DNA from: Syntrophomonadaceae bacterium
GTDB taxonomy: Bacteria > Bacillota > Syntrophomonadia > Syntrophomonadales > Syntrophomonadaceae
Length of the DNA: 64,000 nt
NCBI GenBank assembly: GCA_012729715.1
Contig: JAAYCQ010000082.1
Span: 1 to 64,000, forward strand
Direction of reading: 5' to 3'
Positions 7,351 to 19,427 of the stretch are shown here, one piece after another. The notes under the pieces were generated by a model, which made no database searches, was not told where the DNA came from, and saw nothing but the letters and a program-made list of their open reading frames with translations. Position 1 is the first letter of the stretch, and every line of letters begins with the position of its first letter. The position numbers were made by a program, and so were the translations under genes.

Positions 7351-7533
7351 GAGTTTAATTTACGCGGATCGCGTACCCATAGGGCACACTGATGTAGCGC
7401 TACCGCGCTACCATTAAGGTAGCGGATTATAATAGGATTTACGCGGGTTTTTTTAAAATATTACTTAACCCTGTCTGCCATTTTTATAAGCTGTTGTATG
7501 TGATTGGCAGACATATGGTAATTTATATTTTAT

Positions 7534-9752: not shown

Positions 9753-9802
9753 AATTCACGCGGATCGCGCGGATCTATTAGGATTTACGCGGATTCTTTT
9801 AA
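9753..9802. repeat. CGCGGAT-family repeat end (solo)
   Basis: AATTCACGCGGATCGCGCGGATC...GGATTTACGCGGATTCTTTTAA between fliD and csrA. Confidence 0.6.
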
Positions 9803-9805
9803 TTT

Positions 9806-10527: not shown

Positions 10528-10712
10528 AATTCACGCGGATTTCGCAGATTTAACGGATTTCCACAGATTTAATAACAAATTATAATCAGCGACCAATCTA
10601 TAATAAACCTTGTAGGCTGATCTTATAATCTTTTTAGTTATTTCTCATAAAATAATTATTCATAAACATAAACCGCGTTAATCTTAAGTAATCAGCGCGA
10701 TCCGCGTTAATT
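10528..10712. mobile_element. Internally deleted copy of the GxxExxY cassette (CGCGGAT termini plus relic of the gene 5' end)
   Basis: Both termini match the 11299-11776 element; 10600-10663 matches the first ~60 nt of the GxxExxY gene but is frameshifted (MNNYFMRNN*). Confidence 0.8.
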
Positions 10713-10715
10713 ATC

Positions 10716-11288
10716 TCACGCGATGGCGTCGTAGTAGCTTCCTATCCATTCCACGTTGATGGAGGGTTTTTGTAGGAGGTACATGTCTACTTTGGCCCAT
10801 TCGGTGTTGTTTTCTAGTATTCCCCGCTGCAAGTTACAGTTAATCTCCCGGGGTTCCAGGGTAACTTCAACTTCCCTGGTTTCTACATTTACCTCAGGCG
10901 GATGCTCGGGCATTAGGGCTACATTATAGTCTACTTCAGATTCAGCCTGCAGGCGGGATGCTACTAATTGCCCCACACTGGTTGGGGCTTCTATGCTTCC
11001 CAGGGTGTCCCCTTCAGCGGCTATAGTACCTATGGCTTCTAAACCCTGTGATAAGGACAACTGGGCATTTTCCCGGCATATTGTAGGGGGAGTCTTTAAT
11101 CCCATATCAGCCCGGCACTGGGTCCAGTCTATCTCCAGTTTGGCCGAAGGGTTATCTATCTGCAGGGAAACTGACGTAGTTTTTATATCCAGGTAAGGTA
11201 GCGTGGTATTAAGTTTTATAGCCGGCTTATAGATATCCAGTCCTACCAGTGCCGGCTGTTGGGTAATGCGTAGGTCCATACCTCTCAC
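10716..11288 (-). CDS. DUF6470 / YviE-like flagellar-cluster protein
   Basis: MDLRITQQPALVGLDIYKPAIKL...; position between flgL and fliW as for B. subtilis yviE. Confidence 0.7.
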   Translation of the reverse strand: MRGMDLRITQQPALVGLDIYKPAIKLNTTLPYLDIKTTSVSLQIDNPSAKLEIDWTQCRADMGLKTPPTICRENAQLSLSQGLEAIGTIAAEGDTLGSIEAPTSVGQLVASRLQAESEVDYNVALMPEHPPEVNVETREVEVTLEPREINCNLQRGILENNTEWAKVDMYLLQKPSINVEWIGSYYDAIA

Positions 11289-11298
11289 CTGCCAGGTT

Positions 11299-11776
11299 AA
11301 TTCACGCGGATTTCGCGGATTTAATGGATTTCCGCGGATCTTTTAACAATTCTTAGGCATTTACTACTTTTCTCTTAAAGGTTATTTTTTCGCCAAAATT
11401 TATTAATAAACCAACTTTAATTCCAGTAGCTTTTAAATAATTAATTAACTGCGTTTCTTGAGCTCGACCCAATTCACTAATTGCTTTTAATTCAACAACG
11501 ACTTTATCATCAACCAACAAATCAGCAAAATACTCACCTATCAGGTTATCTTCATAATAAACCTTTATTGGGCATTGCTGTTTTACCTCAAAGCCCTCAT
11601 TCTTTAGTTCAATTACCATAGCGTTTTCGTAAACTTTTTCCATAAAACCCGCGCCCAAGGTATTATAAACCTTGTATGCTGATCTTATTATCTTTTTAGT
11701 TATTTCGCTATAAAGCAAATTACTCATAAATAAAATCCGCGCTAATCTTAATTAATCAGCGTAATCCGCGTGAATT
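11299..11776. mobile_element. Inverted-repeat-bounded cassette carrying a GxxExxY gene
   Basis: Left AATTCACGCGGATTTCGCGGATTTAATGGATTTCCGCGGAT; reverse complement of the right end AATTCACGCGGATTACGCTGATTAATTAAGATTAGCGCGGATT. Confidence 0.7.
11353..11727 (-). CDS. GxxExxY protein (PD-(D/E)XK-like fold family)
   Basis: Sequence SAYKVYNTLGAGFMEKVYENAMVIEL...YFADLLVDDKVVVELKAISELGRAQETQLINYLKATGIKVGLLINFGE. Confidence 0.9.
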   Translation of the reverse strand: MSNLLYSEITKKIIRSAYKVYNTLGAGFMEKVYENAMVIELKNEGFEVKQQCPIKVYYEDNLIGEYFADLLVDDKVVVELKAISELGRAQETQLINYLKATGIKVGLLINFGEKITFKRKVVNA

Positions 11777-14345: not shown

Positions 14346-14605
14346 AATTCACGCGGATCCCGCGGATTTATTTTGATTTACGCTGATTTTTTTAAATAAA
14401 TCATATTCAATCAGCTATTTTCATACGTGGTTGCTATGTGCCCTTCAGGGTATGGCCTCCGGCCCTGGGGGGTTAAATAAACCAATACTTTTAGGGTTTC
14501 TCATCAAACTATAGTTTGATATTACTCTACGCTGTGGGAATCATATTAAATCGTTTAAGAAAAAACCGTGTGAATCCTTACGAATCCGCGCAATCTGCGT
14601 GAATT
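14346..14605. repeat. CGCGGAT-family element without a recognisable ORF
   Basis: Left AATTCACGCGGATCCCGCGGATTTA, right AATCCGCGCAATCTGCGTGAATT; internal palindrome ATCAAACTATAGTTTGAT. Confidence 0.55.
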
Positions 14606-17157: not shown

Positions 17158-17206
17158 CTTAGTTACCCCTTTTTTTGACGCGGATTCCGCGACATTAATT
17201 TTTAAT

Positions 17207-17330
17207 TCTTAATTCTTAATTTTGAATTATGGTTGAAATGCTCCACATTTCTTTTTATATATTAATAAACGGAAAATCGGTAGATTTTCCACCCTTAATT
17301 AAAAATTCAAAATTTAAAATTCATAATTCG
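17207..17330. repeat. AT-rich palindromic repeat, 'empty' version of the S23 cassette
   Basis: TTTTGAATTATGGTTGAAATGCTCCACATTTCTTTTTATATATTAATAAACGGAAAATCGGTAGATTTTCC...AATTCATAATTC; abuts the flgN stop. Confidence 0.75.
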
Positions 17331-17840
17331 TTAGATTTTCTTATCCAGAAGGTTCTTCAACGCATAGCTGCCTTCGCCGGTTTGGTCTCCTTTGTTGGAG
17401 TAGGTGCCGGCTACATCGCCGTTAAGGGTAGTTTCTATTACCTTTATATAATCAAGTGATTGTTCCAGTAATTCGTTATTATGGACATTAATAGCGCCCA
17501 GCCGGGTGAGGTTGTAATCCAGGCGGTTTATGGCCTCTTCCAGGTCATGATAGCAAGACGGATAAGCCTCCTCCGCCCTTTTTAAAATCTCCCGGGCGGA
17601 GAGTTCCTCACTGCTGATATCCCACCCCTGTCCAATTTGCTCCTGTAATTTAAAACGGGCACCTTCGGTTTTCTCCAGATTGGATATAACGATGCCCTCT
17701 TTACGAATCAAAGTATCCAGTTCCTTAACCTTACCCAGGATTATTAACTGCTGTTTCTCCTGACCCAATTCGGCCAATTCATCCAGCACTTCATTCAGAG
17801 CAGCGACAGCCCGGGTGAAGTCTGTTAGCAGGGATTCCAC
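17331..17840 (-). CDS. flgN: FlgN family flagellar chaperone
   Basis: 169-aa helical protein between flgK and flgM (LNEVLDELAELGQEKQQLIILGKVKELDTLIRKEGIVISNLEKTEGAR). Confidence 0.85.
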   Translation of the reverse strand: MESLLTDFTRAVAALNEVLDELAELGQEKQQLIILGKVKELDTLIRKEGIVISNLEKTEGARFKLQEQIGQGWDISSEELSAREILKRAEEAYPSCYHDLEEAINRLDYNLTRLGAINVHNNELLEQSLDYIKVIETTLNGDVAGTYSNKGDQTGEGSYALKNLLDKKI

Positions 17841-18862: not shown

Positions 18863-18941
18863 AATATCAACCTCCTTACGCGAAATGGAACCTGAATATT
18901 CTACTACTTTAATTATACCAATAAGATGTCATTTAAATGTT

Positions 18942-19427
18942 GAATTCTTAATTTTAAATTTTGAATTATGGTAGAAATGCTCCGCATTTCTTTTTTTACA
19001 TGTTTTTTCCGCTAGTTTTTACAATTGCTGTTAGTATTCTAATTAATTCATCTACTCTTTCTAATAAAGGATAAGCCTCATTTTCCTCTAGATAATTACT
19101 GTCTTTTAGTAATCTTAGCCAGTAAGAACTCTCTCGGGCTTCTCTGGAGGCAATACTCATTTTATGGGCAAAATCCTTTCTACTGCTAGCAGCCAATGCT
19201 TCTTCTACATTGGCTCCAATACTAGTTCCTGCCTTCAACAATTGTCGCGATAATACATATTCACGCTTATCTATGAGCTTCTTATTTAAATTAACAATAT
19301 CCAATGCAAATTTATAACTTTTTATTTTAATTGCGTTATCTTTAATATCATTCATATTATTAATTACCGGAAAATCGATAGATTTTCCAACCTTTAATTA
19401 AAAATTAAAAATTCATAATTCAAAATT
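18942..19427. mobile_element. AT-rich inverted-repeat cassette carrying an S23-like four-helix gene
   Basis: Left arm AATTATGGTAGAAATGCTCCGCATTTCTTTTTT and right arm ATTATTAATTACCGGAAAATCGATAGATTTTCC...AATTCATAATTC match the two halves of 17207-17330. Confidence 0.65.
18996..19355 (-). CDS. S23/IVP-like four-helix bundle protein
   Basis: Sequence SYKFALDIVNLNKKLIDKREYVLSRQLLKAGTSIGANVEEALAASSRKDFAHKMSIASREARESSYWLRLLKDS: the S23/IVP signature. Confidence 0.93.
   Translation of the reverse strand: MNDIKDNAIKIKSYKFALDIVNLNKKLIDKREYVLSRQLLKAGTSIGANVEEALAASSRKDFAHKMSIASREARESSYWLRLLKDSNYLEENEAYPLLERVDELIRILTAIVKTSGKNM

Follow-up and report, generated by a model that had tools for sequence, protein, structure and literature searches.

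A mobile element can encode a small PD-(D/E)XK nuclease and nothing else, as in homing endonuclease genes of the I-Ssp6803I type. To our knowledge, no function has been assigned to GxxExxY proteins, which are common orphans. MITEs and bacterial IS elements combine an autonomous copy with internally deleted derivatives that have the same ends. In REP/REPIN-RAYT systems few nuclease-type genes per genome are accompanied by many short inverted-repeat copies, the sequence of these copies follows the resident gene, and RAYT is an HUH (Y1) transposase (PMC3116915). 23S rRNA intervening sequences of about 430-500 bp carry one small ORF between complementary ends, and their protein family is the four-helix-bundle family TIGR02436 / S23p (PMC4990558). 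Rickettsia palindromic elements of about 150 bp lie in frame in housekeeping genes; the review gives no nuclease gene of their own (PMC10969869). Xanthomonas and Nostoc contain paired inverted heptamer repeats, described in a paper without mention of four-helix-bundle genes (PMC4692102).

Here we analysed a window of 64,000 nucleotides from a Syntrophomonadaceae genome, in which a GxxExxY gene lies in a flagellar operon (Table 1; the flagellar gene names are our reading of the ORFs). As the original prediction had it, the gene is intact and part of an inverted-repeat element. It is located between inverted CGCGGAT arrays. The termini, their coordinates and the gene were as described there, but the termini proved to be periodic unit arrays instead of simple short TIRs. 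At each end of an element a unit of 9-10 nt is arrayed in 2-4 copies, and the CGCGGAT units in the arms of element A are 9-10 nt apart. The inverted pair 11299-11321/11754-11776 (23 nt) is 91% complementary, and an end of element B pairs with an end of element A over 24 nt with 92% complementarity (10527-10550/11754-11777). Allowing up to one mismatch, ACGCGGATT was found 28 times in the window compared to 9.1 expected occurrences, and ACGCGGATTNCGC had 53 matches in the genome compared to 0 for the reversed pattern. Because the counts exceed these expectations and controls, the CGCGGAT-type repeats of window and genome are not due to chance.

Table 1. Array-terminated elements and related features of the window.
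Feature	Position	Strand	Basis
Gene-bearing element A in the flagellar operon, flanked by flgL and a DUF6470-like gene	11299..11776	-	inverted ends, flanking ORFs, sites in relatives
GxxExxY protein, 124 aa, PD-(D/E)XK nuclease fold	11353..11727	-	TIGR04256 and PF13366 matches, conserved catalytic residues, AF2 model
Arm array of element A (CGCGGAT / CGCGGAT / CGCGGAT)	11299..11343	+	sequence, paired-array scan
Inverted arm array on the opposite side of element A (CGCGGAT / CGCTGAT / CGCGGAT)	11732..11776	-	sequence, inverted repeats, paired-array scan
ORF-deleted sister element B, DUF6470-FliW gap, gene-start remnant at 10581-10644	10528..10712	-	repeats shared with element A
Gene-less paired-arm element C, flgL-flgK gap	14346..14605	.	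repeat matches, paired-array scan
Solo arm array, csrA-fliD gap	9753..9803	+	inverted repeats, paired-array scan
Solo arm upstream of flagellin, interrupted by another short repeat	7358..7458	+	repeat matches
Arm stub (GACGCGGATTCCGCGACA) in the flgN-flgK gap	17175..17192	+	sequence
Four-helix-bundle element (TIGR02436; ORF 18999-19397, -) between inverted 7-nt arrays	18936..19427	-	profile match, array
ORF-deleted sister of the four-helix-bundle element	17197..17331	-	matches to both ends of 18936-19427 (66 nt, 88%; 56 nt, 82%)

Element B had been read as a deletion derivative of its neighbour. This was confirmed, as it has both ends (51 nt, 86%, and 59 nt, 85%) and a remnant of the gene start (64 nt, 86%) in common with element A. 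The sister species G004 also has element B, with a different internal sequence. The inventory of copies was incomplete: element C, the solo arms and the arm stub of Table 1 have to be added. In the flgN-flgK gap, where the window has the arm stub, the sister species G001 contains a GxxExxY gene. A second short repeat (CCCATAGGGCACACTGATG..., GCTCCC...GGTCGCTATTAA) is nested within the arm arrays at 7370-7420 and in the flanks of loci L069, L079 and L089. The window genome has a single GxxExxY gene. A scan of a subset of loci from the genome yielded 16 solo arms and 11 paired-arm elements, the latter measuring 80-248 bp when gene-less and 466 bp when gene-bearing. Gene-less copies accumulate.

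The flgL-DUF6470 gap was compared across relatives. It was empty (10-51 bp), gene-bearing, or occupied by short gene-less elements only; the congener G003 and other genera had the empty form. Because empty orthologous sites exist, the gene does not occupy the same site in all relatives, the pattern which the original prediction had set against its own claim of a mobile element. In G004 a CACTGA-type element with a gene remnant was located next to a leftover CGCGGAT arm, suggesting that this one site was hit by separate insertions. The window copies do not interrupt ORFs, whereas copies in GatB, RecG and LepA are inserted in frame. GatB of genome G418, apparently Patescibacteria-like, is an ORF of 681 aa with the element in frame, while most of the 147 genomes of the order that were searched with this GatB have the ORF uninterrupted, at about 460-560 aa. 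Gene-less arms occupy the same GatB loop in two of the nearest genomes, and about 25 others in which the loop was read have neither element nor arms. For RecG, in-frame copies occur in at least six genomes, for LepA in one, all of them Patescibacteria-like; Pfam places PDDEXK_3 between domains of the host protein. All RecG copies are in the same loop, probably as a single inherited insertion. Presence and absence between species demonstrated that the element inserts into operon gaps and into housekeeping ORFs. No target-site duplication was identified at the flgL-DUF6470, GatB and four-helix-bundle sites, with the GxxExxY flanks being too diverged, and these between-species comparisons revealed neither an excision product nor movement itself.

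In profile searches the product of the window gene matched TIGR04256 with E=2e-41 and PF13366 (PDDEXK_3) with 8e-42. Scores were above the curated cut-offs with 140.9 vs 35 and 142.7 vs 22 bits, respectively, in agreement with the predicted PD-(D/E)XK-like protein. The catalytic residues D65, E75 and K77 were conserved in 102, 103 and 102 of 106 homologues; D, ExK, E and Q were each kept in >93%, and the E of GxxExxY was present in at least 102. The AF2 model (pLDDT 95.8) resembled Cas4-like SSO0001, LHK-Exo, lambda exonuclease and Hjc resolvase, although the Foldseek TM-scores did not exceed about 0.4-0.6, and a sequence search against solved structures showed no relation to the GxxExxY protein. 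In computable pairs dN/dS was 0.06-0.28, i.e. about 0.1. Thus, as judged from sequences, the protein evolves under purifying selection, keeps its active site intact and is a predicted nuclease. A phage origin was discarded, with 0 GxxExxY relatives in 50,697 phage records (plasmid records: 7 of 72,556). Genome G404 has tandem GxxExxY domains, namely a 293-aa ORF with two domains and a similar adjacent pair (L225, L226), the second copy being apparently degenerate. A literature search, with most subscription journals outside its range so that a prior description is possible, found no link between GxxExxY and repeats; one paper mentions GxxExxY only as a gene beside a reverse transcriptase.

For a wider comparison 129 distinct GxxExxY domains were collected from relatives of the window genome and, outside these, from 21 genomes belonging to other groups, the loci being partly picked by similarity to the window protein. 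All comparisons were between species and many genomes were metagenome bins. The 104 full-length loci with enough flank, from many phyla, were tested for arms. Alignment of the upstream flank with the reverse-complemented downstream flank gave a median score of 36, compared to 18 with swapped and 18 with shifted flanks. The score exceeded the 95th percentile of the shifted controls at 79 of the 104 loci; about a quarter were without arms under the settings used. GxxExxY loci occur across many phyla in unrelated contexts, and the arms flank these other genes too, whose lack of such termini would have spoken against the original prediction.

The repeat unit, called heuristically, is common to both arms of one locus and differs between loci (CACAGAT, CGCGGAT, CACAAAG, CACGGAG, CGCAAAG, CACCGAG, ACAGGAT, TACGAAT), and most units fit CRCNRAK. 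In unselected loci 3.25 CRCNRAK sites per locus were convergent (inward) and 1.15 divergent (outward), with 0.68 in shifted windows. The unit profile had nearly fixed positions 1, 3 and 6 and free positions 2 and 4, the fixed ones being partly circular as the loci were filtered by pattern. At some loci, e.g. L119, a reversed arm arrangement in the aligner came from a neighbouring gene-less copy. At L117 (around 2300-2900) the arms appear inside out, with the right-type array upstream and the left-type array downstream of the gene. The GxxExxY loci L149 and L153 of genome G290 are flanked by a different repeat (GACCCAGCATGTAGC) and not by CRCNRAK arrays.

The unit was linked to the protein. Protein distance and unit distance correlated with a Mantel rho of 0.44, while the best of 2000 permutations reached 0.17. 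On a 48-tip protein tree of modest support, base 7 of the unit (G vs T or A) changed twice, compared to a mean of 14.2 changes and never fewer than 9 after shuffling; base 5 changed 8 times compared to 14.7, and bases 2 and 4 had no link to protein clade. Six genomes (G399, G400, G405, G406, G408 and G412) contain both unit classes, and there the unit follows the protein, not the genome, with the exception of one locus, L179. Among 19 relatives, genomes with the gene had 2-355 arm pairs and those without it 0-18 (p=0.0006). Nearly all listed copies in G000 have CGCGGAT, as does its own gene, and those in the congener G002 are mostly CACAGAT and CACTGAT, resembling the unit of its own gene; G014 and G026 possess the gene and almost no other copies. 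Arms and protein form one recurring unit. Furthermore, the link of unit and clade supports a recognition of its own unit by the GxxExxY protein.

The neighbours of GxxExxY genes, taken as the longest ORFs and thus determined by a rough method, were co-oriented with the gene in 81 of 96 cases upstream and 84 of 97 downstream. With both neighbours called, 66 loci were ++ and 2 were --. Truncated copies had the same sense bias (14 to 0). The orientation of the gene hence follows host transcription. We propose that the bias exists because read-through from host operons would express the GxxExxY gene.

The window contains a second type of array-terminated element, with a four-helix-bundle gene (Table 1). 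Its site is empty in three congeners (G001, G002 and G003) with no target-site duplication evident, and 23 of 25 four-helix-bundle loci from these genomes had matching inverted flanks. In genome G415, four-helix-bundle domains are located within ORFs of 556 and 309 aa (L275, L286), possibly as in-frame insertions. The four-helix-bundle protein has no nuclease domain. An array-terminated element without a nuclease of its own can therefore exist, and because such a protein has similar arrays, array ends alone are no proof of a nuclease mechanism.

Gene-bearing, gene-less and in-gene copies together appear to make up a family of tiny mobile elements that is so far undescribed. We consider it probable that we are dealing with a compact one-gene mobile element, which ends in inverted short-unit arrays with a spacing of about one helical turn and whose GxxExxY nuclease recognises the unit. 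In the proposed mechanism the protein would bind the arm arrays and nick or cut there, host repair would then copy or paste the element elsewhere, and gene-less copies would be moved in trans. We infer that the protein cuts the arms and that the element moves by it, instead of the protein riding on the element. The converse, i.e. an array element spread by host processes or another enzyme with GxxExxY as a cargo that has its own role in repair or defence, appears unlikely to us. It would fit the predominance of gene-less copies in the genome and the similar arrays around four-helix-bundle genes. Yet it does not predict that unit bases 7 and 5 go with the protein clade, both across phyla and inside six genomes, that arm abundance follows gene presence, or that gene-less copies use the unit dialect of the resident gene. 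Purifying selection, the intact catalytic residues and the link of arm base and clade favour an active role over that of a passenger. A flagellar-operon gene inherited vertically with incidental repeats is hardly conceivable: identical gaps are occupied in several relatives, but the empty sites in G003 and other genera refute it, and insertions inside GatB, RecG and LepA as well as loci in many phyla in unrelated contexts speak against it as well.

Could the element act at the RNA level like a 23S rRNA intervening sequence, with arms pairing in the transcript and removal or processing by host RNase III? The strong sense bias, the copies inside operons and ORFs and the related four-helix-bundle family being the intervening-sequence protein family (PMC4990558) would agree with it. 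However, arm differences comprised 71 GU-compatible and 88 AC mismatches (p=0.2) in addition to 226 transversions. Selection for an RNA stem was rejected by this test for wobble asymmetry, and because GU is not in excess of AC the arms rather resemble inverted arrays of sites for recognition on DNA. Since the host ORF stays open across in-frame copies, these need not be removed, and Rfam gave no match in the window; overall we regard an RNA-level element as improbable. Slightly less credible still is a mutational by-product, in which slippage builds the tandem units and quasi-palindrome correction by template switching equalises the arms without any recognition by a protein. Arms that are alike within and different between loci and the lack of a strand-specific pairing signal are in line with it. 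The near fixation of unit positions 1, 3 and 6 next to free positions 2 and 4, even if partly forced by the filter, and the tracking of protein clade by bases 5 and 7 are not, and it leaves dispersed copies with identical unit unexplained.

Thus we favor the mobile element with its own nuclease. The genomes examined contain recurrent repeats such as CACAGATGAACACAGAT or CGCAAAGACGCAAAG, for which we found no explanation; the link to GxxExxY gives both an identity, as element and as its nuclease. A difference in recognition is predicted, i.e. the arm base G vs T tied to protein clade, which is testable in vitro. Moreover, a mobile gene persists inside conserved proteins without any means of self-splicing. 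The origin of 23S rRNA intervening sequences may become clearer through the parallel four-helix-bundle element. More tentatively, and with somewhat less than even confidence, we suggest a so far unrecognised, phylum-spanning class of array-terminated elements, in which GxxExxY as the single nuclease reads a 9-10 nt unit partly set by clade and gene-less copies spread in trans; its sister class would comprise four-helix-bundle (intervening-sequence-type) genes with 7-nt arrays, 23S rRNA intervening sequences being no more than one of the habitats.

Compared to the described systems, the GxxExxY element resembles REP/RAYT in the few genes and many short copies that follow the resident gene. In contrast to the HUH (Y1) transposase RAYT its protein has a PD-(D/E)XK fold, its ends are multi-unit arrays, and it is gene-bearing at many sites with up to 16 matches per genome (PMC3116915). 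With 23S rRNA intervening sequences it shares size, a single small ORF between complementary ends, sense orientation and frequent decay of the ORF, and S23p-family elements are present in the same genomes and in the window. Instead of an S23p ORF in an rRNA helix, element A carries GxxExxY, a nuclease family, in a protein operon; GxxExxY elements occupy operon gaps and ORFs, have a unit of 9-10 nt and showed no RNA-pairing signal (PMC4990558). Compared by description, Rickettsia palindromic elements are likewise short, palindromic and in frame in housekeeping genes, but some in-frame GxxExxY copies carry a full nuclease-family ORF (PMC10969869). Homing endonuclease genes of the I-Ssp6803I type differ in that GxxExxY has no intron or intein, its sites vary by copy and gene-less derivatives spread. 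The Xanthomonas and Nostoc repeats are similar short-period arrays in convergent, intergenic pairs, yet with a 7-nt unit that resembles the four-helix-bundle elements (PMC4692102). MITEs and bacterial IS differ from the GxxExxY element, which is without a known transposase family, has arrays in place of one TIR and showed no target-site duplication. In common with transposable elements it has occupied and empty orthologous sites, in the flgL-DUF6470 gap and the GatB loop, and gene-less copies that share the ends of the gene-bearing one.
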